From Streptomyces kanamyceticus (GTDB taxonomy: Bacteria; Actinomycetota; Actinomycetes; Streptomycetales; Streptomycetaceae): 64,000 nucleotides of DNA. Every line of letters starts with the position of its first letter. Position 1 is the first letter of the stretch. Where the stretch lies: the NCBI RefSeq assembly GCF_008704495.1, contig NZ_CP023699.1, positions 9,734,001 to 9,798,000 on the forward strand, given 5' to 3'. Position numbers and translations under genes: made by a program. Positions 2,163 through 52,780 of the stretch are shown here, one piece after another. The notes below the pieces were generated by a model. That model had not been told where the DNA came from. It saw only the letters and a list, made by a program, of their open reading frames with translations, and made no database searches.

Positions 2163-2164
2163 CC

Positions 2165-4126: not shown

Positions 4127-4133
4127 GGGGCGC

Positions 4134-5669: not shown

Positions 5670-5670
5670 G

Positions 5671-6903: not shown

Positions 6904-6905
6904 AC

Positions 6906-10889: not shown

Positions 10890-10892
10890 ACC

Positions 10893-24700: not shown

Positions 24701-25181
24701 GCTGGATCAGCCCGCCGCCGACGGCACCCCGCAGTACGCAGGTGCTCCAGGCTCCGTGGGCCTTCCGGTCCGGCACGCCCGCGTACCCGAACACCGACAC
24801 GGGCGCGTCACCCACCAGACCCACCCGCGCGTCCAGCAGCCGGGCCGGACCGGCACCGACCGGCAAGGTGTCCCCGCCCACCAGGATCAGGCCCGCCACG
24901 TCACGCCCCGGACACCCGGCGCCCGGCGGCGGATCCCAGGCGGCGATCCGGCAGTGCCGCAGCGGCGCGCCCTCGGCATCGCCCAGCAACACGAACTCGA
25001 CCTGCACGCGCGCCGTGTCGGCGGGCCGGTCGCGCACGCTCTTGTCCCGGCCGAGCGCGGCGTTGACCACGTGGGCGCAGGTGACGATGTGCCGCTCGCC
25101 GACGACGAAGCCGACCCCGACAGGGGAGTCCGAGGTGCTGACCCGGATCTTGACGATGAGTCCCTCGCGCTGGGCACGCAC
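21771..25181 (-). CDS. Trypsin-like protease / STAND NTPase / hybrid histidine kinase fusion
   Basis: An 1136-residue multidomain protein. Residues about 10-215 are a trypsin-like protease with intact triad His37 (TCAHVV), Asp94 (GRDVAGL) and Ser176 (GYSGAPVV). Residues 230-600 are a STAND NTPase, starting CPYRGLRAF, with Walker A GPSGVGKSS (272-280) and Walker B LALIGDQFEE (356-365). A Gln/Glu-rich coiled coil spans about 650-725. HisKA has His734 (NMSHELRTPL); HATPase has N-, G1 (DTGIG) and G2 (GGTGLGL) boxes. After an Ala/Pro linker comes a receiver with Asp1068 (VLMDTMMPDMDG) and Lys1120. No transmembrane segment, so it is cytoplasmic. All catalytic parts look active. It lies 5 bases after the Trypco1 gene. 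Such proteases are thought to gate STAND signalling in immunity or stress. Ligand unknown. Confidence 0.85.
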   Translation of the reverse strand: MRAQREGLIVKIRVSTSDSPVGVGFVVGERHIVTCAHVVNAALGRDKSVRDRPADTARVQVEFVLLGDAEGAPLRHCRIAAWDPPPGAGCPGRDVAGLILVGGDTLPVGAGPARLLDARVGLVGDAPVSVFGYAGVPDRKAHGAWSTCVLRGAVGGGLIQLDSGAESALRAQPGYSGAPVVATDRWGDAVVGMLAVASRGGGAQDAYAVPMTEVAAAWPEVLGRTVLPPCPYRGLRAFTAADAQTGVFVGREREVERLRDMVKAQPFVMVTGPSGVGKSSLVAAGLQPALAADGWSVVSFRPGVTPYESVARALLDLEHPGGDHSLEQLENRAGAVREDGFWPVASRVAVLTGQRLALIGDQFEEILSAGPESGTPLEYLRQLLPPPDALQDPRVRLVCTLRSDFLPELLELPDLGPRLQDRQLNVSPLDEGALTRVIVEPAQLAGVAFTPGLAEQIACEASKAAGSLPLLEFTLTELWPMQHDRRISFDSYHGLGGVSGALNQHAEKVYIWLSEQLGLDEPRIKRALLTMVRARGGASSAVRVTARRAHLGGDWSIAQLLADPERRLVILGPEGPDTAEIAHEALIREWERLAAWVEADADFQQWLTLMEERAQGKEKDLLSATRVAEAQHWLTERRPDIPSEVADLIEHSSAEVIKQQQTQQLLSQSQALTEQLRARSAELESHQMALGESHRQLEAKTREIEEARQVLEERNEQLAYSMSYKAEFLANMSHELRTPLQSMLILSKMLADNPEANLTAQQVQFAETIHGAGSDLLMLINDILDLSKVEAGKMEVSPSPVNLAELLDYVAATFRPLTTEKGLGLSVHLSPDLPLTVPTDEQRLLQVLRNLLSNAVKFTHSGSIELAVTFAGSSVPPAIREDLHEAGSLQDPGAELLAFSVTDTGIGVAADKMQVIFEAFKQADGTTSRKYGGTGLGLSISREIAQLLGGQIHAASELGRGSTFTLYLPLQHHADFSYPPHPAPAPAAPATRDEPSGPRPVADSALDPDTSFLFNGERVLVVDDDIRIVFALTSLLEHRGLVVLYAEDGREAIDVLEQHPEVALVLMDTMMPDMDGYETTAAIRKEPRFAGLPIIALTAKAMRYDREKALESGASDYVAKPVEPDELLTVMRRWLP

Positions 25182-32810: not shown

Positions 32811-33854
32811 ATGACGAGAAAAGCAGCATCCCCCCGCACCTCCACCCATACGTCCGCCCGCGCATCGGCAGTCTCACCCAGCGCGCCCGACCCGGATCCG
32901 ATGGCGGTTCGGGTCCGGGGGATGAAGAAGGCGTACGGGGGTCGGGCGATCCTGGACGGGATCGATCTGACGGTTCCGGCGGGCACCGTCTTCTCTCTGC
33001 TCGGGCCGAACGGCGCAGGGAAGACCACCGTCGTGAAGATCCTCTCCACCCTGATCACCGCCGACTCCGGCGACCTGCGCGTAGGCGGTCACGACCTGGC
33101 CGCCGACCCGGGGGCGGTGCGGGAGTCGATCGGGGTCACCGGGCAGTTCTCCGCGGTGGACGGGCTGATCACCGGGGAGGAGAACATGCGGCTGATGGCG
33201 GACCTGCACCGGCTGCCCCGCCGCGAAGGACGCAGCCGCGTCGCCACGCTCCTGGAGCGTTTCGATCTGGTGGAGGCCGCCAAGAAGCCCGCGTCCACGT
33301 ACTCCGGAGGGATGCGGCGCCGCTTGGACATCGCCATGACCCTGGTCGGCGACCCGCGGATCATCTTCCTCGACGAGCCGACCACCGGCCTCGACCCGCG
33401 CAGCCGTCACGCCATGTGGGAGATCGTCCGCGAGCTGGTGGCCGACGGCGTGACCGTCTTCCTCACCACGCAGTATCTGCAGGAGGCCGATGAACTCGCC
33501 GACCGCGTCGCGGTGTTGAACGGCGGCGCGCTCGTCGCCGAGGGCACCCCCGACGAGCTGAAACGGCTCGTGCCCGGCGGCCACGTGCGGCTGAGGTTCG
33601 CCGACGCGGACGAACTCCGCAGGGCGCGACGGCTGTTCCGCGAGGCGGAGGCGGAGCGGGAGCTCGGCGTCGGGACCGGTGACGAGGAGGCGCTGACCTT
33701 GCAGATTCCCAGCGACGGCGGCGTACAGTCGGTCAAGGCGATTCTCGACCGGGTCGACGGCGCGGGCCTCGAGGTGGCGGGACTCACCCTCGAAAGACCC
33801 GACCTGGACGACGTGTTCTTCGCCGTGACCGGTCAGCAGGTGGTGACCTCGTGA
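32811..33854 (+). CDS. DrrA-type ABC exporter ATP-binding protein
   Basis: A 347-residue ATPase with Walker A GPNGAGKTT, the Q-loop region VTGQFSAVDGLITGEENM typical of daunorubicin-resistance exporters, signature YSGGMRRRLD, Walker B IIFLDEPTTGLDPRSR and H-switch equivalent LTTQYLQEADELADR. The first 30 residues are Ser/Thr/Ala-rich and not conserved, so ATG 32901 may be the true start; neither has a good Shine-Dalgarno. It pairs with the permease through a GTGA overlap. Confidence 0.9.
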   Translation: MTRKAASPRTSTHTSARASAVSPSAPDPDPMAVRVRGMKKAYGGRAILDGIDLTVPAGTVFSLLGPNGAGKTTVVKILSTLITADSGDLRVGGHDLAADPGAVRESIGVTGQFSAVDGLITGEENMRLMADLHRLPRREGRSRVATLLERFDLVEAAKKPASTYSGGMRRRLDIAMTLVGDPRIIFLDEPTTGLDPRSRHAMWEIVRELVADGVTVFLTTQYLQEADELADRVAVLNGGALVAEGTPDELKRLVPGGHVRLRFADADELRRARRLFREAEAERELGVGTGDEEALTLQIPSDGGVQSVKAILDRVDGAGLEVAGLTLERPDLDDVFFAVTGQQVVTS

Positions 33855-34651
33855 ACGCCCCCGTACGCGACGGCGTCACCATGCTGCGCCGTAACCTCCT
33901 GCACGTACGCCGCTATCCGTCACTCACCCTGAACACCCTGCTCACCCCCCTCGTCCTGCTCCTGCTGTTCGTGTACATCTTCGGCGACGTGATGAGCGCG
34001 GGCATCGGCGCCGAGCTGAGTGGCGGTCCCGGTGGCGGCGACCGTTCCGCGTACGTCGCCTATCTGGTCCCCGGCATCCTGCTGATGACGCTGGGCTGTT
34101 CCCTGGTGGGGACCGCGGTGTCGGTCTGCGACGACATGACCGAGGGCATCGTCGCGCGCTTCCGTACGATGCCGATCCATCGTGCCTCGGTGCTGGTGGG
34201 ACACGTGGTGAGCAGCGTGCTGCAGGCGGTCGTCAGCGTGGTGGTAGTCGGGGCCGTCGCGGTGGCCGTCGGCTTCCGCTCCGCGAACGCCACGGTCGTG
34301 GAGTGGCTCGCGGCCTTCGGGCTCCTCGTCCTCGTGGCCCTGGCGCTCACCTGGATCGCGGTGGGCGTGGGCATGGCCAGCCCGAACGGGGAGGCGGCCG
34401 GGAACAACGCGGTGCCGCTGATCGTCCTGCCGTTCCTCTCCAGCGCGTTCGTGCCGCTGTCCGCGATGCCCGGCTGGTTCAGGCCCGTTGCCGAGTACCA
34501 GCCGTTCACCCCGGCCATCGAGACACTGCGCGGTCTGCTGCTCGGCAGCGGGATCGGTGGCGAAGGATGGCTCGCGGTGGCGTGGTGCCTGGCCCTGGCC
34601 GCGCTCGGTTACGCCTGGTCCCTTTCGCTGTTCACCCGCGACCCGAGGTGA
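33851..34651 (+). CDS. DrrB-type ABC-2 permease
   Basis: A 266-residue permease with about six helices and the ABC-2 features TLLTPLVLLLLFVYIFG, VPGILLMTLGCSLVG and DDMTEGIVARFRTMPIHRASVLVGH. It works with the ATPase at 32811 to export a drug-like molecule. Its 3' end overlaps the convergent SARP gene by 20 bases. Confidence 0.88.
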   Translation: MNAPVRDGVTMLRRNLLHVRRYPSLTLNTLLTPLVLLLLFVYIFGDVMSAGIGAELSGGPGGGDRSAYVAYLVPGILLMTLGCSLVGTAVSVCDDMTEGIVARFRTMPIHRASVLVGHVVSSVLQAVVSVVVVGAVAVAVGFRSANATVVEWLAAFGLLVLVALALTWIAVGVGMASPNGEAAGNNAVPLIVLPFLSSAFVPLSAMPGWFRPVAEYQPFTPAIETLRGLLLGSGIGGEGWLAVAWCLALAALGYAWSLSLFTRDPR

Positions 34652-37600
34652 GCGCGCGGGCCGCCTGACACAGCTCGCCCGGCCGCAGGGCGGTGTACGC
34701 CGATACCGCCTCGGCGTACACCGCCGCGTCGGCGTCCAGCGCCGCCCGGCGGGCCCGGTCCGCGGACATGGTGGGCTGGAACTCGCGCAGCGCCCGCAGC
34801 CGTTCGGCCAGCGCGATCATGCGTACGGCGTCGGCGCGGGCGTCGTCGCCCGAGGCGCACCGAGCCGTTCCCGAGGCGAGCCCAGCCGTGCCCAGCGCGT
34901 GCAGCACGGTTCCCAGGACCCGGAGATCCACGGGCCCGGCCTCCGCGTCGACGAGCAGCGTACGCAGCCGTCGGCCGAGCTGTTCGGTCAGTTCCGCGAC
35001 GGGTTCGAGGTCACCGGCGGTCGCGTGCGCGGTCACCGCCGCGGCCTGGATCTGCAGTGCCCACGGATCCAGCCAGGGATCGCCGGGATGCTGGGAGCCG
35101 GTCGCGGGCATCTGTCGAACGGCGGTGCGCCACAGGCCGAGCCCGGTCGGGGTCAGCCCGCGGGCGAGCGCGATCTCGGCGCGGAGGCCGGGGAGAGGAC
35201 TGTAGAAGGCGTCCTGGTGCGGACTGCGCGAAGCGTCGTCCGGTGGGCCGCTCTCGCCCTCGGCCCGGCGCAGCCAGCGCTCGGCCTCGTCCGTACGGCC
35301 GCGCTGCAGGCAGGCAAGGGCCAGCGCCTGGCGGACCCCGAGCACACCGAGTACGTCGTGCTCCGCACCGAGCCGACCCATCGCCTCGAGCACCACGGTG
35401 AGGTGCTGGTGGGCCGCCTCGCCCTGTCCCGCCCGCAGACACAGGTCACTCAGCCGACCGTGGCTGATGACCCGCAGGGACGGGATGTCGGCCGGTGCCA
35501 GGGCGGTGATCATCCGCTGCGCGGCGGCGAGTTGGCGATCGGTGTCGTGCTCGGACTCCCAAACGTAGGTGGCCACGAACTCGGCGATCCCGGCGACGAG
35601 CGGCTGACCGCTGTCGCAGAGCCGGTCCAGCGCGTCGTACGCGGGAGGCCGCATCGCCGGGATCGCGGCGAGCACGGTCGCGGTGGCGCGCGGCAGGGTG
35701 TCGGGCGGTGCCGGTGGCAGCCGACGCAGCGCGAGGAGCTGGCGCGCGGCGTCGGCGCGCGGGCCGAAGCTCAGGAACAGGCCCGCCGCGCACAACACCG
35801 CGGCGGTGCGCGCCACTTCGACGTGCGCGGCACCGGCGGGCTGCCCGGAGTCGAGGCGGTGGTGGGAGAGGGCAGGACCGGTGTCGGCGGCGAGGGCGGC
35901 GAGGCGCGGGTAGTACGAGCCGGTGAACCACAGGGCGGCGAGTACGGCGGTGACGGCGGCGGTGGTGGATCCTTCCTCGCGGGCCAGGGCCAGGCGCAGG
36001 GCCCCTACGAGATTGTCCTGCTCGGCCCGGATCCGCTCACGGGCGACCGCGGGTTCGGCACCTAAGAGCACGTCATGGTGGGCGAGTCCGAACTCCCTTG
36101 CCCAGCCCAGGAACCGGTCCTCCGCGGCCTCGTCCTCACCCGCCTCCGTACGACGGGCCGCGCTGAACTCCCGTACGGTCTCCAGCATTCCGAAGCGCAC
36201 ACCGGCCGGTGATTCGGCGACGGTGACGAGCGACTGGCCCGCCAGCTGCTCCAACAGCCCGAGCGCGTCCCCGCCGAGGACGTGCTCCGCCGCCGGGCCC
36301 GAGAAGCCGCCGGGGAAGACGGACAGGGTGCGCAGCGCCGCCTGGGCGTCCTGGGTGAGCAGGTTCCAGCTCCATTCGACGACCGCGTGCAACGTGCGGT
36401 GGCGCTCGGGCCCGTCCCTGGCCCCGCCGCGCAGGAGCGCGAACCGGTCGTCGAGACGGCGGGCGATCTCCGTCACCGACAGGACCCGCACCCGTGCCGC
36501 CGCCAGCTCCAAGGCCAGCGGCAGACCGTCCAGATGTCGGCAGAGCACGGCCACCGCCTGAGGCGGCACCTGCACACCGGGCCTGGCGGCGCGGGCGCGC
36601 TGGGTGAACAGCTCGGCGGCCGTGTCGGGAGCGAGCGCGTCCGGTGCGTACACCGCCTCCGAGGTCAGACCCAGTGGGGCCCGGCTGGTGGCGAGCACGC
36701 GCAGCTGCGCGGAGGCGGAGACCAGTGCGTGGACGAGGCGGGCGGCGCCCTCGACGACCTGCTCGCAGTTGTCCAGGATCAGCAGCGCGGGCCCGGAGCC
36801 GAGGACTCCGAGGATGGCGGGGACGGGGTCGGCCGGGGGAGCGGGGGAGGCCGGGGCGTGCCGGCCCACCGGCTTGTGCGGTCCCTGGCCCGCGCCGAGC
36901 GCGAACGCCACCTCCCGGGCCACGTCCTGGTCCTCGCGGACCCCGGCCAGCGGCACGCAGTACACCAGGCGTTGCTCGGCCGTGCGGCCGACGGCATGCG
37001 CGAGCCGGGTCTTGCCGAGGCCACCTGGGCCCACGACGGTGACGGCGCGGGACCCGCGCAGCAGCCCGGTCACCGCGGTGATGTCGTCCTCCCGCCCGAG
37101 GAGCGGGTTCGGCTCGTGGGGAACGCCGATCCGTACCGTGCGCGGCGCATCGTCGAGCAGCTCCCGCTGCACCGCCTTGAGGCCCGCGCCCGGATCCGTA
37201 CCGAGCTGCTCGCGCAGATCACGCCGGTAGTCCTCGTACCGGGTCAGCGCGGCCGCCGGGCCCGCCGTGGCGGCCAGGCCGCGCAGCAGCTCGGCGAGCA
37301 CCTCCTCGTCGCGGGGCTGCTCCTCGGAGATCATCGCCAGTGGCCCGGCGGCTTCGGCGTGCCGGCCCAGCCTCGCGAGGGCGAGGGCCCGCGCGCGGAC
37401 GAGCCGGTCGCGCACCGGGGCCCGTGCGGCGCGCAACTCCTCGACGGGGCCACCGATTCGACCCCCGCCCTCGCCCTCGAACGCGGCGCCGGTGCCGCCG
37501 CCCTCCCACAGCGCGAGCCCGGCCTCGGCCGCCGCCAGCGATCCCGTGGGGTCCCCGGCCCGGGCCCGCTCCTCGCTCGTGGCGGCGTGCAACGGCAGCG

Positions 37601-37886
37601 CGGCACTGTCCACCTGCTCATCGGCCAGGGCGAGCCGGTAGCCGACCGGCGTACTGACCAGGACGTCGGCGCCCAACGCGGCCCGCGCCCTGGACACCAG
37701 AACCTGCAAGGCCTTGTCCGGGTGCTGCGGCAACGCGTCGGGCCACAGCCCCTGTACGAGCCGTTCGGTGCCGCAGCCGGTGCGCACATCGCCCGCGAGC
37801 AGCGCCAGGAGCCCGCGCAGCCGGGGCGCGGTGATCTCCTGTCCGTGCCAGGCGACCCGTGCCAGCAAGGTCAGTTCGGTGCTCAC
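34632..37886 (-). CDS. SARP/AfsR-type regulator with BTAD, NB-ARC and TPR regions
   Basis: A 1084-residue regulator. Residues 1-90 are an OmpR-like winged helix; about 95-245 are the BTAD domain (RYEDYRRDLREQLGTDPGAGL). An NB-ARC-type NTPase follows with Walker A GPGGLGKT (286-293) and ILDNCEQV. A long helical TPR-like C-terminus completes it. This is the AfsR-like class that controls secondary metabolism. It is convergent with the Drr exporter, a common arrangement in Streptomyces, and may control it. No TTA codon was searched systematically. Confidence 0.85.
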   Translation of the reverse strand: MSTELTLLARVAWHGQEITAPRLRGLLALLAGDVRTGCGTERLVQGLWPDALPQHPDKALQVLVSRARAALGADVLVSTPVGYRLALADEQVDSAALPLHAATSEERARAGDPTGSLAAAEAGLALWEGGGTGAAFEGEGGGRIGGPVEELRAARAPVRDRLVRARALALARLGRHAEAAGPLAMISEEQPRDEEVLAELLRGLAATAGPAAALTRYEDYRRDLREQLGTDPGAGLKAVQRELLDDAPRTVRIGVPHEPNPLLGREDDITAVTGLLRGSRAVTVVGPGGLGKTRLAHAVGRTAEQRLVYCVPLAGVREDQDVAREVAFALGAGQGPHKPVGRHAPASPAPPADPVPAILGVLGSGPALLILDNCEQVVEGAARLVHALVSASAQLRVLATSRAPLGLTSEAVYAPDALAPDTAAELFTQRARAARPGVQVPPQAVAVLCRHLDGLPLALELAAARVRVLSVTEIARRLDDRFALLRGGARDGPERHRTLHAVVEWSWNLLTQDAQAALRTLSVFPGGFSGPAAEHVLGGDALGLLEQLAGQSLVTVAESPAGVRFGMLETVREFSAARRTEAGEDEAAEDRFLGWAREFGLAHHDVLLGAEPAVARERIRAEQDNLVGALRLALAREEGSTTAAVTAVLAALWFTGSYYPRLAALAADTGPALSHHRLDSGQPAGAAHVEVARTAAVLCAAGLFLSFGPRADAARQLLALRRLPPAPPDTLPRATATVLAAIPAMRPPAYDALDRLCDSGQPLVAGIAEFVATYVWESEHDTDRQLAAAQRMITALAPADIPSLRVISHGRLSDLCLRAGQGEAAHQHLTVVLEAMGRLGAEHDVLGVLGVRQALALACLQRGRTDEAERWLRRAEGESGPPDDASRSPHQDAFYSPLPGLRAEIALARGLTPTGLGLWRTAVRQMPATGSQHPGDPWLDPWALQIQAAAVTAHATAGDLEPVAELTEQLGRRLRTLLVDAEAGPVDLRVLGTVLHALGTAGLASGTARCASGDDARADAVRMIALAERLRALREFQPTMSADRARRAALDADAAVYAEAVSAYTALRPGELCQAARALTSGRG

Positions 37887-39767: not shown

Positions 39768-41165
39768 TCAACGACGTCCGTGCGCCGTTCGCTGCCGTAC
39801 GTATCCGGCGACCACGAGCGCGACCGTCAGGCCGCTCGTCCACGCGAGCTGCCCCCGAGTCGTCGGCTCCATCGCCATCAGGACGAACACGGCCGCCATG
39901 CCTGCCAGCGCCACCCAGGTCAGGTACGGATACGCCCACATCCGCACCGCGAGCTTCCCGGGCTCCTCCTGCTCGGTGCGGCGGCGCAGGATCAGCTGGG
40001 AGACGGCGGTGAACGTCCAGACGACGAGGATCACCGCGCCGATCATGTTCAGCAGCCACTGGAAGATGTCGTCGGGCCGCCAGTAGCTCAGCAGGACGCA
40101 GAGGAAGCCGAAGGCCGACGAGGCGATGACCGAGCGGCGCGGCACGCCGGAGACGATGCGGCCGAGCGCGGCGGGTCCCTGGCCGCGGGAGACCAGCGAA
40201 CAGGCCATGCGCGAGGAGCCGTAGATGTTGGCGTTCATCGCCGAAAGCAGCGCGATCAGTACGACCACGTTCATGATCTGACCCGCGCCGGGGATCCCCA
40301 GCTGGTCGAGGGCGGCGACGTAGGGGCCCTTCTCCACGACCTCCTTGTCGTCCCACGGCACCAGCGCCACGATCACCAGCATCGAGCCGATGTAGAAGAC
40401 CGCGATCCGCCACATCGCCGTGCGCACGGCTCCGGCGACGCCGCGCACCGGGTCGTCCGACTCGGCGGCGGCGATGGTGACGGTCTCCAGGCCGCCGTAC
40501 GCGAGGACCGAGGCGAGCAGGCCGATGATCAGCCCCTCGGTGCCGTTGGGCAGGAAGCCTCCGTGGCCGACGAGGTTGGCGGTGCCCGGCGCGTCCGTGC
40601 CGGGCAGTACACCGGCGATGGCGAGTCCGCCGACGACCAGGAAGAGGACGATCGCGCCGACCTTCAGCGCGGCGAACCAGAACTCGAACTCGCCGAAGTT
40701 CTTCACGGCCGCCAGGTTCGCGCCGCAGAACACCACCATGAACAGCGCCACCCACGCCCACTCGGGCGTACCGGGCAGCCAGCCGGTCATGATGTGGGCG
40801 GCGCCGATGCCCTCCAGGCCCACGCCCATGCACAGCATGAACCAGAACGACCAGCCCGAGGTGAAGCCCGCCCACGGTCCGATCGCGCGTTCGGCGTGGA
40901 CGGAGAAGGAGCCGGAGGCCGGATGGGCGGCCGACATCTCGCCGAGCATCCGCATGACCAGCATCACCAGGAGGCCGGAAGCGGTGTAGGCGAGGACGAT
41001 CGAGGGCCCCGCGGCGGCGATGCCCGCTCCGGACCCCACGAAGAGCCCGGCGCCGATGACTCCGCCGAGCGCGATCATCGACAAGTGCCGCTGCTTGAGC
41101 CCCTTGGCGAGCTGTGGCTCCGGGGTGAGCGGGGGCTTGGGAGGGGTGCTTGTCGAGGAAGGCAT
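39768..41165 (-). CDS. APC-superfamily amino-acid permease
   Basis: A 465-residue permease with twelve hydrophobic segments and the AAT-family start KQRHLSMIALGGVIGAGLFVGSGAG. Later motifs are HPASGSFSVHAERAIGPWAGF and AYGGLETVTIAAAESDDP. It is close to GabP/CycA-type permeases, which take up GABA, D-serine or similar amino acids with protons. The specific substrate cannot be assigned. Two GATATCC sites lie upstream. Confidence 0.88.
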   Translation of the reverse strand: MPSSTSTPPKPPLTPEPQLAKGLKQRHLSMIALGGVIGAGLFVGSGAGIAAAGPSIVLAYTASGLLVMLVMRMLGEMSAAHPASGSFSVHAERAIGPWAGFTSGWSFWFMLCMGVGLEGIGAAHIMTGWLPGTPEWAWVALFMVVFCGANLAAVKNFGEFEFWFAALKVGAIVLFLVVGGLAIAGVLPGTDAPGTANLVGHGGFLPNGTEGLIIGLLASVLAYGGLETVTIAAAESDDPVRGVAGAVRTAMWRIAVFYIGSMLVIVALVPWDDKEVVEKGPYVAALDQLGIPGAGQIMNVVVLIALLSAMNANIYGSSRMACSLVSRGQGPAALGRIVSGVPRRSVIASSAFGFLCVLLSYWRPDDIFQWLLNMIGAVILVVWTFTAVSQLILRRRTEQEEPGKLAVRMWAYPYLTWVALAGMAAVFVLMAMEPTTRGQLAWTSGLTVALVVAGYVRQRTAHGRR

Positions 41166-43648: not shown

Positions 43649-44389
43649 TCAGACACGGCAACGCAGCATCTCCAGCGGGGGATTGGCGCGGAAGTCCGCC
43701 CAGTGATCCGCGCCGAACTCGCGCACACCGGCCTCCGACACGGTGAGGGGAACCCAGGTCAACTCGCTGAACCCGGCAGCCCGCAGACACTTCTCGTAGA
43801 CCTCGCGGCGCGGGAGGTTGGCGACGAACGAGACCGGCGGGTCGAGCAGCGCGGTGGTCCGCACCTTCGGCCCGGTCTCGACCTCCTCGCCGGTGAGCAC
43901 GCTGCGGAACCCGTACTTCTCCGGAGTCGGCCCTTCGAAGTCGAAGTCGGGTGACTGGTTGAGCAGGAAGAACTCCCCGCCGGGCGCCAGGCTCCGGTGC
44001 ACGTTGCGGCACATCCGCTCCGTGGTGGCGATGTCCTCCGCGTAGTTGAGCAGCTGGACCGCCAGGCCGATGTCGAACCGCTGCTCAAAATCGCGGAGTT
44101 CGGACGCGTCGCCCACCTCGTAGCGCACACCCAGCGGATCGCGCTCCTCCAACGCCTGTGCCACGGCGACCATCTCGCCGGAGATGTCGATGCCGAGCAG
44201 CTCCCCGGCGCCGCGCCGCTTGAACTCCCTGCTGTAGAAACCGGTGCCGCAGGCCAGGTCGAGGACCGACTTGCCGCGCACGTCGCCGACCAGTGCCAGG
44301 AATCCGGGCACCACCGAGTACTGCTCCAACGGCAGGGCCTTGAACCCTTCGTACGCCTCACCGATCTCGTCATACTGCTGCGCGCTCAT
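43649..44389 (-). CDS. Class I SAM-dependent methyltransferase
   Basis: A 246-residue methyltransferase with motif I VLDLACGTGFYSREF, acidic motif GIDISGEMVAVA and YEVGDASEL. The start ATG 44389 is chosen because GGGGAGAG lies 8 bases before it; a frame extends further upstream without support. It resembles small-molecule methyltransferases of the ToxA/UbiE-like kind. Substrate unknown. It converges on the ECF42 gene. Confidence 0.85.
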   Translation of the reverse strand: MSAQQYDEIGEAYEGFKALPLEQYSVVPGFLALVGDVRGKSVLDLACGTGFYSREFKRRGAGELLGIDISGEMVAVAQALEERDPLGVRYEVGDASELRDFEQRFDIGLAVQLLNYAEDIATTERMCRNVHRSLAPGGEFFLLNQSPDFDFEGPTPEKYGFRSVLTGEEVETGPKVRTTALLDPPVSFVANLPRREVYEKCLRAAGFSELTWVPLTVSEAGVREFGADHWADFRANPPLEMLRCRV

Positions 44390-44663
44390 CGTGCCGCTCT
44401 CCCCTGTTGCCTGGTCATCCGGGTCATGTCCTGGCGCGCAGTCTTCCCGCACTCCTGCGTAGGGGCGTACTGGCTGAAGCCACAAAGATCCGGCCAGTGT
44501 TCCGGTGTCCCGTACGGGCGGAGGGTGCGGGTGCCGAGTCAACCAGCGCGGTAGCGGCGGTGGGCTGCCGCGAGGGGTGGAGGGGCGGTTACGGCGCTCG
44601 TTCGACGACACCGGATCCGTGAACTCCTAGCGTTTTCCCATCACTTCGAGTTGAGGGGGACGC

Positions 44664-45221
44664 ATGCGAAAGCAGCGGATCGGCCGGATGTTGGGGGCGC
44701 TGGCACTGGGTATCGGCGCCGTTCCCGCTTCCGCGGCGGTGGTACACGCCGACGGAGTCGCGCAGCAGGAGGCGCGGCCCAAGTGCCCCGACGGCCACTA
44801 CGCGTACACCTTCGGAACTCCCGGCGGGCCGGGAGCCTACGTGTACCTGAACGTCGCGGGCGGCAGTCACAAGGGTGCCAAGGTCATCACGTATCCGTGG
44901 TCGGGCGGCAAGGGCAACGAGATGTGGTGTCTGACGGCGGGCCCCAAGGGCTACGGCCACCGGATGCACCCGTACGACAACAAGAACCTCTGCCTGGACG
45001 TGCCGGGGAGCCGCTACAAGAAGGGGCAGGGCCTGATCGTCTGGGACTGCAACGGTCGTAAGAACCAGACCTTCTACGTGCAGCCCGTCCACACGGACAA
45101 CCCGTACTCGATCATCGGTCCCTGGGAGAAGTCGGACCTCAAGGTGCATCGGGGCAAGGACGCGGTCGGCAGTCAGGTCTCTCTGTGGCCGCACATGAAC
45201 ACGCATGCCGAGTGGCGGTAG
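44664..45221 (+). CDS. Secreted ricin-B-lectin-like protein
   Basis: A 185-residue protein. A signal peptide is clear (MRKQRIGRMLGALALGIGAV, then cleavage near ASAAVVHADG). The mature part has a beta-trefoil-like pattern (NEMWCLTAGPKGYG, NKNLCLDVPGSRYKKGQGLIVWDCNG, KNQTF), the CLDV and QxF/W motifs of ricin-B domains. It should bind carbohydrate outside the cell. GAGGGGG precedes the ATG by 4-5 bases. The 274 bases before it (44390-44663) hold only promoter space. Confidence 0.8.
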   Translation: MRKQRIGRMLGALALGIGAVPASAAVVHADGVAQQEARPKCPDGHYAYTFGTPGGPGAYVYLNVAGGSHKGAKVITYPWSGGKGNEMWCLTAGPKGYGHRMHPYDNKNLCLDVPGSRYKKGQGLIVWDCNGRKNQTFYVQPVHTDNPYSIIGPWEKSDLKVHRGKDAVGSQVSLWPHMNTHAEWR

Positions 45222-45289: not shown

Positions 45290-45322
45290 ATGCCTAGGGA
45301 GGCAAGTTTCCAGGGAGTGCGC

Positions 45323-45916
45323 ATGGTGAGGGCCGGTCTTACGGCGGAGCGGGTGACGGTCGCGGGCGCCGAACTGGCGGACGAGGTCGGGTTCGAGCAG
45401 GTGACCATGTCGCAGGTGGCCCGGCGGCTCGGCGTGAAGGACGCGAGTCTCTACACGCACGTACGGAACTTGGCGGATCTGCGGGGACGGATCGCGCTCC
45501 TCGCGGCGGACGAGAAGACCATCCGCATCGCGGAGGCGACGGTCGGCCTCGCGGGCAAGGACGCGTTGGTCGCGTTCGCCACCGCCTGGCGGGAGTACGC
45601 CCACCGGCACCCGGGCCGCTACACCGCGACGCAGACCCCGATCGACATCGACCCCGAACTGGCCGCGCACGCACCGGGACCGCGCCGCGCGGTCGAGCTG
45701 ACCTACGGCATGCTGCGCGGCTACGGACTTGCCGAGCCCGACCTGACCGACGCGGTGCGGCTGCTGCGCAGCACGTTCCACGGATTCGTCGCCTTGGAGG
45801 CCATGGGCGGTTTCGCGCACCAGCGCGCGCCGCAGCGGTCCTGGGTCCGCACCCTCGACGCCCTGCACACGCTCCTGGAGCACTGGCCCCCGCTCGAAGA
45901 CGGAGAATCCGCATGA
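45323..45916 (+). CDS. TetR/AcrR-family regulator
   Basis: A 197-residue regulator with HTH VTMSQVARRLGVKDASLYTHVRNLADL and a WHG-type C-terminal domain (TYGMLRGYGL, FHGFVALEAMGGF). ATG 45323 has AGGGAG 7 bases before it. It is ATGA-coupled to the hydrolase it probably regulates, most likely through the 45251-45289 dyad. Confidence 0.85.
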   Translation: MVRAGLTAERVTVAGAELADEVGFEQVTMSQVARRLGVKDASLYTHVRNLADLRGRIALLAADEKTIRIAEATVGLAGKDALVAFATAWREYAHRHPGRYTATQTPIDIDPELAAHAPGPRRAVELTYGMLRGYGLAEPDLTDAVRLLRSTFHGFVALEAMGGFAHQRAPQRSWVRTLDALHTLLEHWPPLEDGESA

Positions 45917-46800
45917 CCACGCCGACCACGCCCACGACGGGGAGCACCCCGGCGGCCCCGACCACCGGCAGCCTCCGCGTGCCGGGTGCGACCCTGCACT
46001 ACCAAGTGCGCGGCGAAGGACCTCTTCTGCTGCTGATCCCCGGTGGGGCGGGCGGGGCAGCCGCCTTCGACAACGTCGCCGACGGCCTGGCCGCCGAGTA
46101 CACCGTCGCCACCTACGACCCGCGCGGCATTTCTCAGAGCACGCTCGACGACCCCGATGCCACGCAGCGGGTTCCCGAACACGCCGACGACGCCTGCCGA
46201 CTCCTGGAACTGCTCTCGCCCGGCGTGCCCGCCCGGGTGTTCGGCATGAGCTCGGGCGCGATCGCCGCTCTGCACCTGCTCACCGCGCATCCCGAACGCA
46301 TCGAACGCCTCGTGGCGCACGAGCCGCCGGTGGTGGAAGTCCTGCCGGACGCCGCCGAACACCGCGCGCTCCTCGCCCGGGTACAGGAGACGCTCCGCAC
46401 CCAGGGACTCATGGCGGCGATGGCCGTGTTCGCCGAGGGTTCCCGGAGCAGCAGCGGCGTCAGGAACGGCGAGCCTGCCGAGCCGAAGGCCGAGGCGACG
46501 CTCCCGCCCCAAGCGGCGGCACGGGCCGAGCGGACGATGGCCAACCTGCCGTACTTCGTCGAGCGCATCATGCCGAGCTTCATGGCCTACGCCCCGGACA
46601 CCGACCGCCTGGAAGCACTCTCGGACCGGCTCGTGTTCGCCGGGGGACAGGACTCCCGCGGTGAACTGCCCTACCGACCGGCCGCCGTGCTGGCGGAGCG
46701 ATTCGGCACGGAACTCCGTCATTTCCCTGGCGGGCACACCGGTCTGACCACTCACCCGGACCAGTTCGGCGAACTCCTTCGCAAGGTGTTCCGCGCGTAG
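45913..46800 (+). CDS. Alpha/beta hydrolase
   Basis: A 295-residue alpha/beta hydrolase. Its Thr/Pro-rich start is followed by the oxyanion region LLLIPGGAGGAA, YDPRGIS, the nucleophile elbow FGMSSGAIAAL (Ser) and the catalytic His in FPGGHTGLT. It probably cleaves an ester or lactone. It forms a two-gene operon with the TetR regulator and converges on the lanthipeptide precursor gene. Confidence 0.85.
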   Translation: MTTPTTPTTGSTPAAPTTGSLRVPGATLHYQVRGEGPLLLLIPGGAGGAAAFDNVADGLAAEYTVATYDPRGISQSTLDDPDATQRVPEHADDACRLLELLSPGVPARVFGMSSGAIAALHLLTAHPERIERLVAHEPPVVEVLPDAAEHRALLARVQETLRTQGLMAAMAVFAEGSRSSSGVRNGEPAEPKAEATLPPQAAARAERTMANLPYFVERIMPSFMAYAPDTDRLEALSDRLVFAGGQDSRGELPYRPAAVLAERFGTELRHFPGGHTGLTTHPDQFGELLRKVFRA

Positions 46801-46877
46801 CAATTCAGAGCGCGTTTCTGTAAGGGCGCGGAATATGCCCTCAACTGGAAAACTTGCCCAGCCGGTCAAAGGTGCGT

Positions 46878-46903
46878 GCCCTTAAGGGCAATGCGCATTG
46901 CCC
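46878..46903. repeat. Overlapping palindromes between hydrolase and precursor genes
   Basis: GCCCTTAAGGGC (46878-46889) shares its last four bases with GGGCAATGCGCATTGCCC (46886-46903), a perfect 18-base palindrome with no loop. They lie about 80 bases after the hydrolase stop. A transcription-factor site, or part of a terminator for the plus-strand operon. Confidence 0.5.
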
Positions 46904-46938
46904 CTTGATGTTCCCGCGCCCGTGAAAAGGGCGCGACC

Positions 46939-46979
46939 GGGCCGGTTCCGGCCATGCGGGGCACCGCTGGAACCGGCCC
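46939..46979. terminator. Hairpin terminator behind the precursor gene
   Basis: Perfect 11-base arms GGGCCGGTTCC / GGAACCGGCCC, with a 19-base loop that itself can pair. On the minus strand it starts 15 bases after the precursor stop and is followed by CCCTTTTC. It probably ends the precursor transcript. Confidence 0.7.
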
Positions 46980-46994
46980 TTCACACGGCCTGCG

Positions 46995-47138
46995 TCAGCA
47001 GAGCGAACAGGTCGTGCACGTGCGGAAGCAGGACTCTTCGCCGGAGATCGCGCCCGCGGCGCTGTCCTGCGCGACGTCCTGGATGGAGGTCTCGGTGAGG
47101 TCGATGTCGAAGAGGTCCTGAGTCATGCTCTCGGGCAT
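46995..47138 (-). CDS. Class I lanthipeptide precursor (47 aa)
   Basis: A 47-residue peptide. The leader (MPESMTQDLFDIDL start) contains FDIDL at residues 10-14, the counterpart of the FNLDL box that LanB/LanC enzymes bind, and is acidic. The C-terminal core is SGEESCFRTCTTCSLC: four Cys with Ser32, Ser36, Thr40, Thr42, Thr43 and Ser45 as possible dehydration sites. Ring pairs such as Thr40-Cys44 and Thr43-Cys47 are possible, but this is inference. AGGAAGG lies 9 bases before ATG 47138; ATG 47126 is an alternative. It is divergent from lanB, has its own strong promoter, and is the only peptide candidate in the locus. The leader cleavage site is not certain. Confidence 0.85.
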   Translation of the reverse strand: MPESMTQDLFDIDLTETSIQDVAQDSAAGAISGEESCFRTCTTCSLC

Positions 47139-47202
47139 GGGAATTCCTTCCTGTGGAACCTTTGAAACCGAACGAACCGCCGCCCTTTGGCGACAAGAGC
47201 GG

Positions 47203-47232
47203 AATCTAGGTACGGATAGCGGACGGAGTCAA
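47203..47232 (-). promoter_or_regulatory. Vegetative-type promoter of the precursor gene
   Basis: On the minus strand, -35 TTGACT (47227-47232) and -10 TAGATT (47203-47208) are 18 bases apart. Transcription would begin near 47196, giving a 58-base leader before ATG 47138. This closely fits the main-sigma-factor consensus in Streptomyces. Confidence 0.7.
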
Positions 47233-47288
47233 GGGGTTACAGGTGAAGTGTGTCTGGGTTAGTGTGACCGCATTCCCTGGGTAGGGAA

Positions 47289-47316
47289 TTGACGATTCTT
47301 AACTTATTTTTATGGG
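47289..47316 (+). promoter_or_regulatory. Possible lanB promoter
   Basis: TTGACG (47289-47294) and TATGGG (47311-47316), 16 bases apart, in an AT-rich patch unusual for this window. The spacing and -10 are imperfect, so support is weak. Confidence 0.35.
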
Positions 47317-47342
47317 GCATGGAGTAAGGGGGAGTGGCGCAG

Positions 47343-50300
47343 ATGCGGCATGGCCAAAGCGCGGAAACGGTGTTCCGTTGCGCGGACGGAGTGCTTTTGA
47401 GGGCGCCGCTCCTGGCACGGCCGAGAGCCCGCGCGACCTGGCAGGACGAGGTGCGGCAGAGCCCGGACGGGACGGGTGCGCCGCCGCCGGAGTCCACGGA
47501 CCTCGACGCACTCCGGGCCCAGCTCCAAGAACTGCTCGCCGACGCACGCTTCCGCGAGGCGGTGGAGGTCTCCAGCCCCTCGCTCGCCCGCACCGTCGAC
47601 GCCGTCCTCGCGAACGCGCCGGTAACCCCATCCGATCTGCGCAAAGCCCACCGGGCGGTGACCCGCTATTTCCTGCGGGCCGCGTCGAGGCCCACCCCCT
47701 TCGGCCTGCTCGCGGGTGTCCTGTGGGGCTCCTTCGGCGCGGCGACCAAGGGCGAACTCACCGGTGAGGGACACAAGGCGGCACGGCTCGACGCCGGTCT
47801 GCTGGCCCGGCTCATCGCCGAGTGGGAGCGCGACCCGGCCGTCCACCAAGGGCTGAGCGTGGTGGCCAACGGTCTGTGCTTCGTACGCGGCGGGCGTCTG
47901 GTCCTGCCCTTCGCCCCGGCCGGACCCGGCCAGGACGCCGCCTCGTCGGACGAGAGCCGCCCCAAGTCACGGACGCTGCGCCACACCCCGGTCGTCCGCG
48001 CCGTGCTCGATGCCGCCGCCCGTCCCGTCCGCTGCGACGACCTGGTCCGCGAGGTCGAGGAGCGGTTCCCGGGGGCGCCCGACGGCGCGGTCGCCCGACT
48101 CGTCGCCCAACTCATCGGCGCGGAGGTGCTGCTGACGGAGCTTCGTCCACCGCTGGACGCCCCCGACCCGCTGGCCCACGTCGAGGCGCTGCTCCCGGCC
48201 GCCACCCCCGCCGCCCGGCGCATCGCCGAGCTGCGCGCGTCCCTCGCCGACTACCTCCGCACCCCGCTCGGTGAGGGAAGGACCGCCTGGCGCACGGCAC
48301 TTGGAGCCGCCGCCGGGGCCACCGAGGACGTCTCGTCCGGCGACTCCTCACCCAAGGACACCCCGGCGAGCGGGCACGCCGTCCAAGTGGACCTGCGCCT
48401 GGACGGTTCCGTCGTGCTCTCGCACGAGGTGGCCCGCGAGCTGGAGCACGCCGCCGCCGCGCTGTGGCGCCTCGCGCCCCAGGGCAGGAGCCGGTTGACC
48501 GCGTACCACCAGGACTTCGTCGAGCGGTACGGCCTCGGGCGCTACGTCCCCGTCAAGGAACTCCTCGATCCCGACATCGGCCTCGGTGCCCCTGCCGGAT
48601 ACCGCCTGCCGCCCAGCCACCGCCCCGACCCGGGGCCCGCGCCCCTGGGAGCCGTACGCCAGCGGCTGTTGCTGGGTCTCGCCGCCGAGGCGCAGGCGCG
48701 CGGATCGCGCGAAGTCGTCCTGGACGAGCGGTGGCTGGGCAAGCTGGAGTCCGCCGACCGTGCCGAGTCCGCGGACCGGGACGCGCCCACCGTGCGGCCG
48801 CCCGCCCTCGAACTCGTCGTGCAGATCGCCGCGACGTCCGCCGCCGCGGTGGACCGGGGCGACTACACGCTCGTCCTCAACGGCGCGGCCACCGCGTCCG
48901 GCGGCCTCATGGGCAGGTTCGCCCACCTCTTCGAGCCCGCACAGGCCTCGGCGATCCGGCACACGGTGCGGGCCGCGCGCGAGGACACCGGACGTCTCCC
49001 CGTCCAGGTCCACCACCAGGCCTCGCACCACCGGCACGCCAACGTCGCGCAGGTGCCGACCTGGCTGGACGGGCGCCTGGTCATCGGCGTCCACCCCGGC
49101 CCAGCCGCGCCGGGCGTCACCGACCTCGCCCTCGACGACATCGCCGTCTGCGCCGACTCCGAGGGCTTTCGGATCGTGTCCGTCCCGCTCGGCCGCGAGC
49201 TGACCCCTTCGGCGCTCCACGTGCTCAACCGCGAACTGACCGCGCCCAACGCGGTGCGCTTCCTCATCGAGGCCGCCGCGTTCGGCCGCAGGCAGTGGCG
49301 GCTGTGGGAATGGGGCGCCGCGGAGGACCTGCCGTTCCTGCCCGCCGTACGCGTCGGACGCACCGTCCTGGCCCCGGCCCGCTGGCGCCTGGAAGCGAAG
49401 GGCCCCTCCCTGGCGGAGTGGCGCGCGCTCTGGAACGTGCCCGACCACGTCCAGCTGACCCTCGGCGACCACCGCATCCCCCTGAACCTCTCCGTTCCCG
49501 CGCACCGGGAGATCCTGCGCCGCGAGTGCGAGCGGACGGGCGCTGCCGTGGTCCACGAGCCGCCCCTGGGACAAGACCCCGACAGCGGTTGGCTGCACGG
49601 ACCCGGCGGCGCCCACGAAGCGGAAGCCGTAGTGACCCTGACGCCCTGTCAGCAAGGCCCCGAGCCGAAGCCCCGGCCCGCGAAGCCCGCGCGCATCTCC
49701 CTCCCGGCGAGTCGGGGCGGCACCGGCGAGATCCCGCCCGGCGGCCCCTGGCTCTACGCGATGCTCTACACCTCCGCCGAGCGCCAGGACGAACTCCTGA
49801 CCGGGCCGCTGCGGCGATTCCTGACCGAGCTGCCGATCCCGCCGGAGGAACCGGGCGGCGTCGACCGGTGGTTCTTCATCCGGTACGCCGACCCGGACCC
49901 GCACCTGCGCCTGCGACTGCACGGCGATCCGGCCCTGCTCAACGGCGTACTGCTGCCCGCGCTCCACGACCTGGCCGGACAACTGGCCGCCGACGGACTC
50001 GCCCGCGGACTGCGCGTCGACAGCTACGCCCCCGAGACCGAGCGCTACGGCGGCCCGGTCCTGCTCGGCGCGGCCGAAGAGGTGTTCCACGCGGACAGCC
50101 GACTGGTGATCGAACGGCTCGCGACCCCGACGGACGACCGGATCCTGTCCACCGCGCACGACGTGGCCGGGCTGGTCAGGGCCTTCCACCGGGGCTACGG
50201 CGGGGACTGGCGGCAGTGGATCACCACCACGTACCCCAAGCGGGAAAAGCACCACAAGGCGTTCGCGGCCCGCAGGAGAGAAGCTCTCGCACGCATCACG

Positions 50301-50537
50301 CCGGACGGCCCCGCGGCCCACGCGCACCACGCGGCGCCCGAGCGCTTCGGGCAACTGGTGCGCGAGGAACAGCGGCGCGGCACGCTGAGCGTCTCCCCGG
50401 ACGCGGTGCTCGCCTCCCTCGTCCACATGCACTGCAATCGGCGCCTCGGTACCGACCGTACGGCCGAGGCACAGACCCTGGCCGTGGCCCGGGGTGCGGT
50501 CCAGGCACACCTCGACCGGGAAAGGGCCGGATCATGA
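47343..50537 (+). CDS. lanB: Full-length LanB lantibiotic dehydratase
   Basis: A 1064-residue class I dehydratase. It has the N-terminal glutamylation domain (from LLRAPLLARP; FLRAASRPTPFGLLAGV; HQASHHRHANVAQVP; FLIEAAAFGRRQWRLWEW). The C-terminal SpaB_C elimination domain is about residues 800-1060 (WLYAMLYTSAERQDELLTG, DRWFFIRYADPDPHLRLRLHG). LanB uses glutamyl-tRNA to esterify Ser/Thr and then eliminates to Dha/Dhb. ATG 47343 has AAGGGGG about 10 bases before it; GTG 47334 sits too close to that site. ATGA-coupled to lanC. Full-length enzymes with both domains fused fit class I lanthipeptides, not thiopeptides. Confidence 0.92.
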   Translation: MRHGQSAETVFRCADGVLLRAPLLARPRARATWQDEVRQSPDGTGAPPPESTDLDALRAQLQELLADARFREAVEVSSPSLARTVDAVLANAPVTPSDLRKAHRAVTRYFLRAASRPTPFGLLAGVLWGSFGAATKGELTGEGHKAARLDAGLLARLIAEWERDPAVHQGLSVVANGLCFVRGGRLVLPFAPAGPGQDAASSDESRPKSRTLRHTPVVRAVLDAAARPVRCDDLVREVEERFPGAPDGAVARLVAQLIGAEVLLTELRPPLDAPDPLAHVEALLPAATPAARRIAELRASLADYLRTPLGEGRTAWRTALGAAAGATEDVSSGDSSPKDTPASGHAVQVDLRLDGSVVLSHEVARELEHAAAALWRLAPQGRSRLTAYHQDFVERYGLGRYVPVKELLDPDIGLGAPAGYRLPPSHRPDPGPAPLGAVRQRLLLGLAAEAQARGSREVVLDERWLGKLESADRAESADRDAPTVRPPALELVVQIAATSAAAVDRGDYTLVLNGAATASGGLMGRFAHLFEPAQASAIRHTVRAAREDTGRLPVQVHHQASHHRHANVAQVPTWLDGRLVIGVHPGPAAPGVTDLALDDIAVCADSEGFRIVSVPLGRELTPSALHVLNRELTAPNAVRFLIEAAAFGRRQWRLWEWGAAEDLPFLPAVRVGRTVLAPARWRLEAKGPSLAEWRALWNVPDHVQLTLGDHRIPLNLSVPAHREILRRECERTGAAVVHEPPLGQDPDSGWLHGPGGAHEAEAVVTLTPCQQGPEPKPRPAKPARISLPASRGGTGEIPPGGPWLYAMLYTSAERQDELLTGPLRRFLTELPIPPEEPGGVDRWFFIRYADPDPHLRLRLHGDPALLNGVLLPALHDLAGQLAADGLARGLRVDSYAPETERYGGPVLLGAAEEVFHADSRLVIERLATPTDDRILSTAHDVAGLVRAFHRGYGGDWRQWITTTYPKREKHHKAFAARRREALARITPDGPAAHAHHAAPERFGQLVREEQRRGTLSVSPDAVLASLVHMHCNRRLGTDRTAEAQTLAVARGAVQAHLDRERAGS

Positions 50538-51829
50538 CCGAGAACCCCGTCGCGCTGCTCGCCGACCGCCTCGCCGATCCGGTCGCCCTGGCCGCACGGG
50601 TGACCGAGGCCCAGACCCCCGAGCTGGCCGAGACCCGGTCCCTGTGGCACCCCCAGTCCCTCGCGGATGGCCACGCGGGCGTCGCGTTGCTCCTCGCGGC
50701 ACTCGCCCACACCGACGCCGGGTACGCGCGAGCCGCGCACGCCCACCTGACGAGTGCCGTCACCGGAGTGCGCAGGCCCGCACGCGAAGGGCTGTACGCG
50801 GGACTGCCCGCGGTCGCCTTCGCCGCCCGCACGGCCGTCACCAAGCCCGGCGAGTACGCCGCGCTGCTCAGCAAGCTGGACGCCCAAGTCGCCCTGCTCG
50901 CCCGCAGACTCGTGGCGGAGGACGCCCCGCGGGTGGCGGCGGGGACCGCCGGTGCCCGGATGGCCGGGTACGACGTGGTGGCGGGCCTCGCCGGTCTGGG
51001 GCGGCTGCTCCTCGCGGCGGGACCCGACCACCGGGACACCACCGAACTCGTCCTCACCCACCTCGTCGCACTCACCCGCCCGGTCGTGGAACCGGGCGGC
51101 AGGACCGTCCCCGGCTGGTGGACCAGCGACCCGATCCTGCTCAGCGAGCCCGAAGGCGTCCCCGGCGGACACTTCAACGCGGGCCTCGCCCACGGCATCC
51201 CCGGGCCGCTCGCACTGCTCTCCCTGGCCCACCGCGCGGGCGTACGCGTGCCGGGCCAGGAGCGGGCGATCCGCACCATCGCCACCTGGCTCCTGGCACG
51301 CCGCAGCCCGGACGGTGCGGGCTGGCCCAACATCGTGCCGCTCGAAGCCGAGTTGACGGCGGCCGCCGGGGGCCGCCCCGACTTGGCCGAAGCGCGCACC
51401 GGCTGGTGCTACGGAACGCCCGGCGCCGCCCGGTCCCTCCAACTGGCCGCGCTCGCACTCAAGGAGCCGGAGTGGAACCGGCAGGCCCTGGCCGCGGTCG
51501 CCGCCGCCTGCGAGCGCAAGGACTTCGCCGACCCCACGCTCTGCCACGGCCTGGCGGGACTCACCACCATCGTGACCCTCATGGCCAAGGAGCCCGGGGG
51601 AGAGGAACTGGCAGCGCTGATACCGAGTTTGACCGACTCCCTGGCCGCCGTGGCGGACCCGGCGCATCCCTTCCTGTGGCCCGCGGCCGCACCCGGCGAG
51701 CGCACGGTCGTGCACCGGCCCGGATTCCTGGACGGAGCGGCGGGCGCCGCGCTCGCCCTGCGCCACGCGACAGACCCGGCCGCGCCACTCGGTGAACTGC
51801 CCTGGCAGGCGGCCCTGTTGCTGTGCTGA
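50534..51829 (+). CDS. lanC: LanC lanthionine cyclase
   Basis: A 431-residue LanC with the zinc ligands Cys292 (GWCYGTPG), Cys337 and His338 (LCHGLAG), and the conserved GLAHGIPGPLALL. It adds Cys thiols to Dha/Dhb, closing thioether rings. Opening SLADGHAGVALLLA is the typical alpha-barrel start. Its ATG overlaps the lanB stop. It ends the visible operon; no transporter or protease gene follows. Confidence 0.92.
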   Translation: MTENPVALLADRLADPVALAARVTEAQTPELAETRSLWHPQSLADGHAGVALLLAALAHTDAGYARAAHAHLTSAVTGVRRPAREGLYAGLPAVAFAARTAVTKPGEYAALLSKLDAQVALLARRLVAEDAPRVAAGTAGARMAGYDVVAGLAGLGRLLLAAGPDHRDTTELVLTHLVALTRPVVEPGGRTVPGWWTSDPILLSEPEGVPGGHFNAGLAHGIPGPLALLSLAHRAGVRVPGQERAIRTIATWLLARRSPDGAGWPNIVPLEAELTAAAGGRPDLAEARTGWCYGTPGAARSLQLAALALKEPEWNRQALAAVAAACERKDFADPTLCHGLAGLTTIVTLMAKEPGGEELAALIPSLTDSLAAVADPAHPFLWPAAAPGERTVVHRPGFLDGAAGAALALRHATDPAAPLGELPWQAALLLC

Positions 51830-51997
51830 GCAGCGGCCACCGCGCCGAGGGATAGTCCAAGCCCGTACCGCGAATGTCCATGGCGTGGAGGTGGGGGGAG
51901 AGGACGACACTGAGCTCCGTCACCTGGCCATGCGCGGTGCTCGCCGGTGCAGTGCGCGAGCACCGTTCTCTGCCCCCACACAGAGGAGGACCAGCAC

Positions 51998-52780
51998 ATG
52001 ACTGGAGTCAAGACCTGGCGGCGGTGCGGCACGGCCGCCGCGTCCATCGGGCTGCTGTTCGCACTGTCCGACCCCGCGGCCTCGTCGGTCGGCGGCGGGA
52101 ACGTGTCGATCGGCTGGTCGATCCCCGGCGCCCCCGCGGGAGGCCTGAGCAACATCACCTTCCCCATGACCGTCAACAAGGGCACGGCCCACAAGGACGG
52201 CATCTACTTCGCCCAGCAGTTCGGCTTCACGAACGCGCCGGACGTCGGATACACGGGCCTGCAGCCACGTGTGAACAGCGGAGGAAGCGAGCGTCTCTCC
52301 GCCCGCTTCTCCAACTTCGTCGCGGGCTCGACCACCACCGACCCGCTCTGCCACGAGGGAGCCGACGGCGGCCCCGGCGTCACCTGCGCGGTCGACTTCG
52401 ACGCCGTGTACGGCCATCGCTACGACATCGAGGTCGAGCGGACGGGAACCGACACCTGGACCGGCACGGCCCGCGACACGGTCACCGGCAAGGAAACCCA
52501 TCTCGGCCGCTACACGCTACCGACGGGCAGCGGCAACCTCCGGGGCTCCCAGGGCGGTTTCGTCGAGTACTACGCGGGGATCCCCAGCTGCGCCGAGATG
52601 CCCAGGTCCGACGTCGTCTTCGGCGGCCCCACCTCCACCGACGGGGGCGGCCTGAACGGCACGGCCAGGGCCAACTACGAGTACAGCGACTGCGTCGGCG
52701 AGTCCAACTACCAGGCCCAGAACGACGGATCGGGCACACACGTCACCCGCGGCTTCGTCTCCGGCAGGAACGCCGGCTGA
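51998..52780 (+). CDS. Secreted protein, DUF3472-like
   Basis: A 260-residue secreted protein: signal peptide (MTGVKTWRRCGTAAASIGLL, cleavage near PAASS) and a beta-rich mature part (IYFAQQFGFTN, VGYTGLQPRVNS, EGADGGPGVTCAVDF, YYAGIPSCAEMP) that recalls DUF3472-type secreted proteins. GAGGAGG lies about 8 bases before ATG 51998. Function unknown. It follows lanC by 168 bases and may be independent of the lanthipeptide operon. Confidence 0.65.
   Translation: MTGVKTWRRCGTAAASIGLLFALSDPAASSVGGGNVSIGWSIPGAPAGGLSNITFPMTVNKGTAHKDGIYFAQQFGFTNAPDVGYTGLQPRVNSGGSERLSARFSNFVAGSTTTDPLCHEGADGGPGVTCAVDFDAVYGHRYDIEVERTGTDTWTGTARDTVTGKETHLGRYTLPTGSGNLRGSQGGFVEYYAGIPSCAEMPRSDVVFGGPTSTDGGGLNGTARANYEYSDCVGESNYQAQNDGSGTHVTRGFVSGRNAG

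Follow-up and report, generated by a model that had tools for sequence, protein, structure and literature searches.

Positions 46995–51829 of the 64,000-nucleotide stretch of DNA analysed here (the window; G000:C1:9734001-9798000, from a 10.13-Mb single-contig genome) very probably hold a self-contained class I lanthipeptide cassette, a reading to which we assign a probability of about 0.85. A precursor gene (LanA) and a lanB–lanC operon read outward from a 13-base block, G[GT]AACCCCTTGAC, and the unit recurs in ten genomes. The sequence-only reading had proposed a 47-residue FDIDL precursor with four Cys residues, divergent from full-length LanB and LanC, and had assigned the locus to class I. 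The translation, the Pfam domains and nine homologous cassettes bear out the first proposal; the second is supported, at the level of sequence comparison, by a full-length LanB with both domains (5ehk and NisB matched), a separate LanC with zinc-ligand motifs, an FxLD-like leader (FDIDL) and a conserved Ser/Thr/Cys core. Conservation, as far as we found, extends to no more than the 47-residue peptide and the two enzymes, which makes the cassette a compact new lanthipeptide source.

Ten related loci in Streptomyces

LanB searches (E <= 1e-150) gave matches in 4/199 relatives and 5/199 genus genomes, two overlapping sets; in each, close LanBs occurred in the window's own genome and in G081 (82% identical) alone, the other matches being 43–45% identical. 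A contig scan with two close LanBs yielded seven loci from 74 candidate stretches, all from Streptomyces and with best segments 76–81% identical. Searches with the precursor alignment were matched in 3/382 genus genomes, 1/384 class genomes (the window's own) and 4/384 family genomes, again overlapping sets; two of the four family-genome matches (G926 and G915) belong to a different, sister type. With G081 and L008, which have an identical precursor, counted as one locus, there are ten distinct loci: the window, L008 (S. atriruber NRRL B-24165), L009 (sp. SDr-06), L010 (sp. NRRL B-1347), L011 (sp. WM6378), L012 (S. spiroverticillatus), L013 (sp. CB01201), L014 (S. silaceus), and L020 (G429) and L024 (G1007) of the same genus. 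In all ten, a divergent precursor accompanies a LanB 72–81% identical and a LanC 76–83% identical to those of the window. Recurring as it does in nine other genomes, the divergent arrangement of precursor and LanB/LanC is, on this comparative evidence, more than chance.

All three loci on chromosome-scale contigs are close to a contig end, at distances of 353 kb (G000), 475 kb (G429) and 9 kb (G1007), and these contig ends are assumed to be chromosome ends. A plasmid collection contained no match to the LanA precursor or to the intergenic region; 36 of its records match LanB, all at less than 60% identity.

The two sister loci, L025 (G926) and L026 (G915), share the divergent layout, with a LanB 39–40% and a LanC 43–44% identical to those of the window. 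Their precursors end in SISCEGSCHRPYCI and SISCDGSCFRPYCI, respectively, and reach no NCBIfam cut-off; unlike the ten-locus core, theirs reads SISC[ED]GSC[HF]RPYCI. A 627-aa ORF at L025 is a putative ABC transporter, judged by eye. For two further LanBs, at L004 and L015 (~41%, tblastn), a simple filter found no precursor.

The precursor gene and its control elements

LanA occupies 46995..47138 on the minus strand and encodes 47 amino acids, MPESMTQDLFDIDLTETSIQDVAQDSAAGAISGEESCFRTCTTCSLC, with a computed unmodified mass of 5019.14 Da. The leader carries an LFDIDL box, the C-terminus is SGEESCFRTCTTCSLC with its four Cys residues, and the core probably lies within ISGEE-SCFRTCTTCSLC. Both LFDIDL and the core are conserved across the ten loci, the core consensus being [ST]CFRTCTTC[SA][LIV]C, where position 1 is Ser in seven loci and Thr in three, and position 10 is Ser in five and Ala in five. 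Nine of the 12 core positions are invariant in amino acid; six of these are encoded by synonymous codons that differ among loci (TGC/TGT, ACG/ACC, CGC/CGT). Over nine precursor sequences (the set without L024), the pooled pairwise Nei–Gojobori dN/dS is 0.263 for the whole gene, 0.326 for the leader and 0.121 for the 12-residue core. Distinct homologues occupy the same divergent position next to LanB/LanC in nine further Streptomyces genomes, which marks LanA as a real gene; it is under purifying selection that is strongest in the core.

A consensus promoter scan of 46801–47345 returned a single promoter-like site (mean of shuffles 0.1), TTGACT - 18 - TAGATT at 47203..47232 on the minus strand, which we take as the LanA promoter. 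In an alignment of eight loci, TTGAC..18..TAGATT is gap-free and its spacer sequence is variable. A pattern search that named both promoter boxes and permitted other spacings found the spacing of 18 in 9/9 loci, and the promoter is readable in L024 too. On the LanB side, conserved blocks at gap-free spacing mark a probable promoter at 47236..47265 on the plus strand, with a GTTAC-type -35 element abutting the LanA -35 and a TAGTGT -10; this site is absent from the scan list for 46801–47345. CACACTA (TAGTGTG on the LanB strand) is identical in 8/10 loci, L012 and L024 being different, and an AACCCC block is also conserved at gap-free spacing. From these we infer back-to-back promoters for LanA and LanB. 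The block G[GT]AACCCCTTGAC, present in 10/10 loci, contains the LanA -35 and probably also holds that of lanB.

The LanA ribosome-binding site, GGAAGGAA (47144..47151, minus strand), precedes the ATG and takes the form GG[AG][AG]GGAA in nine loci, and also in L024. Downstream of the LanA stop, an inverted repeat, GGGCCGGTTCC...GGAACCGGCCC (46939..46979, minus strand), is predicted to form a hairpin; a GC-rich hairpin is predicted at this place in 10/10 loci, with paired changes judged by eye, and could possibly be the transcript end of LanA. It lacks a following T run and for this reason is missing from the terminator-scan list.

A genuine cassette that has fallen silent or degenerated in the window's strain is an improbable alternative. 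Its position 353 kb from the contig end would fit such a reading; however, all three frames are intact, and the promoter and ribosome-binding site of the window copy match the conserved form.

The LanB and LanC enzymes and their proposed chemistry

LanB (47343..50537, plus strand) is a dehydratase of 1064 aa when counted from the ATG at 47343, with glutamylation and elimination domains (PF04738, 580.9 bits; PF14028, 177.2 bits; both above the Pfam cut-off). A GTG at 47334 is also a possible start. As the purine-rich AGGGGGAG directly abuts this GTG and stands at normal spacing from the in-frame ATG, the latter is the likelier start. Solved relatives at E <= 0.001 were 5ehk, a lantibiotic dehydratase and the best match (E 1.1e-115), 9g04 and NisB. 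The NisB residues R83, R87, T89, D121, D299, R464, R784, R786, E823 and R826, whose catalytic roles we take as given, are all kept in LanB as R115, R119, T121, D153, D353, R528, R859, R861, E901 and R904 in the same order (GTG-start numbering, positions by eye; NisB R14 and H961 fall outside the alignment). An elimination domain distinguishes dehydratase LanBs from those of the amino-acid-adding PEARL type, and its presence here ruled out the latter.

LanC (50534..51829, plus strand; 431 aa) starts within a 4-base overlap with the LanB stop. It passes the cut-off of PF05147 (LANC_like; 158 bits), matches 8byk and NisC, and has C292, C337, H338, H220 and D147 by motif position; the Cys–Cys–His motifs that presumably bind zinc are kept.

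From what is known of these enzyme families, LanB would bind the LFDIDL leader, glutamylate the conserved core Ser/Thr residues from glutamyl-tRNA and eliminate glutamate to leave dehydro residues, to which LanC would add Cys thiols to form (methyl)lanthionine rings. Removal of the leader, and export if any, would fall to proteins encoded elsewhere. The dehydrated residues are probably, as an informed guess, [ST]1, T5, T7 and T8 rather than S10, since position 1 is always Ser/Thr while position 10 is Ala in half of the loci. We further guess that the spacing SC..TC.TC..C gives an overlapping ladder of rings, [ST]1-C6, T5-C9 and T8-C12.

The TCTTC in the core raises another origin, in which the locus would descend, by decay or splitting, from a cluster for a thiopeptide or other azole-containing peptide, with LanB providing the dehydro residues and the azole enzymes missing or distant. 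Thiazolylpeptide precursor models (TIGR03892, NF033400) do give some precursors weak scores, of 11.9 of 30 bits (L009, E 0.17), 10.5 (L020) and 7.8 of 25, all far below cut-off. LanB is full length and not split, LanC is kept at the identities given above, and the nine precursor sequences are under purifying selection. The nearest YcaO gene in G000 is at 7.12 Mb against 9.78 Mb for the cassette (~2.66 Mb away), and no YcaO was found in the L008 draft genome; the other six genomes searched do have YcaO genes somewhere on their contigs. A remnant of this kind is therefore very improbable, and the thiopeptide reading was rejected on the full-length LanB, the kept LanC and the lack of a linked YcaO in the window's genome.

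Known relatives, flanking genes and export

All ten precursors stay below every NCBIfam cut-off, and neither the FxLD family TIGR04363 (cut-off 30 bits) nor the FDLD family NF038155 (cut-off 20 bits) has a listed match to any of them. Pfam gave no family for the seven precursors searched (the set without L013, L020 and L024). Two control precursors, L002 (FxLD) and L006 (FDLD), pass NCBIfam and are likewise not detected in Pfam, which makes Pfam uninformative for such precursors. L002 is from the window's own genome, where a second class I locus lies at ~4.74 Mb (L002 1187-1333 of G000:C1; 31.6 bits against the TIGR04363 cut-off of 30). The FxLD and FDLD families have in common with the ten-locus family an FDLD-like leader box and a LanB partner; their cut-offs, missed by all ten precursors, are reached by precursors beside LanBs 35% (L002) and 44% (L006) identical to that of the window. 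Five core strings had no occurrence in a text search of 5.39 million papers, which does not reach supplementary precursor lists. The novelty claimed for the core by the sequence-only reading holds within NCBIfam, Pfam (seven of ten precursors) and literature text, a scope to which RiPP databases and supplementary lists are external. The ten-locus precursor family is real, conserved, of a known kind and apparently uncharacterised.

Comparison with microbisporicin- and planosporicin-type systems shows both likeness and difference. The closest solved LanB by sequence, 5ehk, is presumably the microbisporicin dehydratase. Leaders of this type have a DLDL-like box, and the clusters contain transporters, LanD and a halogenase; at our locus, however, none of these genes adjoins the cassette and the core lacks the SxxxCTPGC lipid II motif.

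The coi and olv clusters of Streptomyces are a second comparison. As described in PMC9486935, these class I clusters have a canonical LanB and LanC and no protease, as here, and their products are not reported from native strains; the lack of a protease alone is therefore not new. They also contain an O-methyltransferase, and families having this enzyme are described in PMC7268733 as showing a conserved core Asp. In contrast, our conserved 12-residue core lacks Asp, and the ten loci have no methyltransferase gene in common; for a generic methyltransferase ORF in the window (43649–44611), the flank comparison revealed no counterpart elsewhere. A distinct core and the lack of any methyltransferase common to its loci appear to separate the ten-locus family from coi and olv. 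Most lanthipeptide families are uncharacterised according to PMC7268733, and the present one may already be in its supplementary lists.

Flanking genes were compared as translated frames of at least 80 residues (E <= 1e-10). Across the ten loci and the two sister loci this gave isolated pairwise matches and no gene common to at least three loci. The ten-locus run dropped frames overlapping the cassette margins; an earlier eight-locus comparison, with cruder margins and with frames retained if they lay clear of the cassette at any one locus, gave one further pair (L011–L012). The flanks compared reach ~3–11 kb, those of L008 being short as its contig is only 7.4 kb, and the window slices began at 37334 (eight loci) or 39001 (ten loci). 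The three-gene unit is unusually bare and portable, recurring in unrelated neighbourhoods of other Streptomyces.

Genes for export and proteolysis were sought with Pfam in 38 window ORFs, 35 of them outside the three-gene cassette; some of these ORFs are probably spurious, and for 20 of the 38 the matches are those at E <= 1e-10. The nearest transporter genes found were an amino-acid permease (39768–41165) and an ABC pair (32811–34651) made up of an ATPase and an ABC-2 membrane gene, which lies outside both flank comparisons. Just beyond LanA lies an alpha/beta hydrolase (45913–46800; Abhydrolase_1, 45.2 of 25.8 bits), which also passes PF12146 (32.2 of 27 bits; Pfam title 'Serine aminopeptidase, S33') and has no counterpart found at other loci. 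A DUF4910/DUF2172 protein (10340–13189) is, we assume, aminopeptidase-like. All four were considered as a linked exporter or protease, and linkage was shown for none. Also beside the cassette are a TetR regulator (45290–45916) and a weak DUF3472 match (51947–52780; 21.2 bits, cut-off 24.8). At five other loci, ten proteins encoded nearby (Pfam, E up to 1e-5) included one MFS transporter (L010) and no peptidase.

The earlier statement that no transporter, protease or immunity gene is present stands insofar as none is common to the loci; as to the window itself, it has to be qualified by the S33-matching hydrolase. Because no flanking gene was found in at least three of the ten loci, lacking an exporter and a protease of its own seems to be a feature of the whole family. 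Against the cassette reading, no gene for either is common to the ten loci, which leaves maturation and export to proteins encoded elsewhere. The window hydrolase and the MFS transporter of L010 are candidates at single loci. The cassette thereby sharpens the question raised by coi and olv, namely how a class I lanthipeptide matures when no protease gene is linked, and whether such peptides leave the cell.

One answer would be that the product, made by the same chemistry, is a signal or morphogen that acts internally or at the surface and not a secreted antibiotic, which would explain the missing exporter, protease and immunity genes. The lack of any flanking gene at three or more loci fits this, as do the missing protease and undetected products of coi and olv in the account of PMC9486935. 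However, exporters and proteases can be borrowed, and rarity (3/382 genus genomes) ill suits a general developmental role, so that we consider such a function doubtful. Equally tentative is a broader extension of the lanthipeptide cassette reading, in which a context-free three-gene unit moves between Streptomyces chromosome arms, relies wholly on host export and proteolysis or acts inside the cell, and makes a peptide whose SC-TC-TC-C core closes into an undescribed overlapping thioether ladder.

Several other window genes were recorded. A large regulator with a BTAD domain, encoded on the opposite strand, adjoins the ABC ATPase/ABC-2 pair (32811–37886 together). Genes at 30–16687, comprising an ADH and GFO_IDH_MocA oxidoreductase fusion, a beta-helix protein, the DUF4910/DUF2172 protein and a polysaccharide pyruvyl transferase, are perhaps a surface-sugar cluster. 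A 1136-residue protein (21771–25181) fuses a STAND NTPase (nSTAND1) to histidine-kinase and response-regulator receiver domains, and a small protein near the cassette (44664–45221) has a ricin-type beta-trefoil lectin domain and, by eye, an apparent secretion signal.
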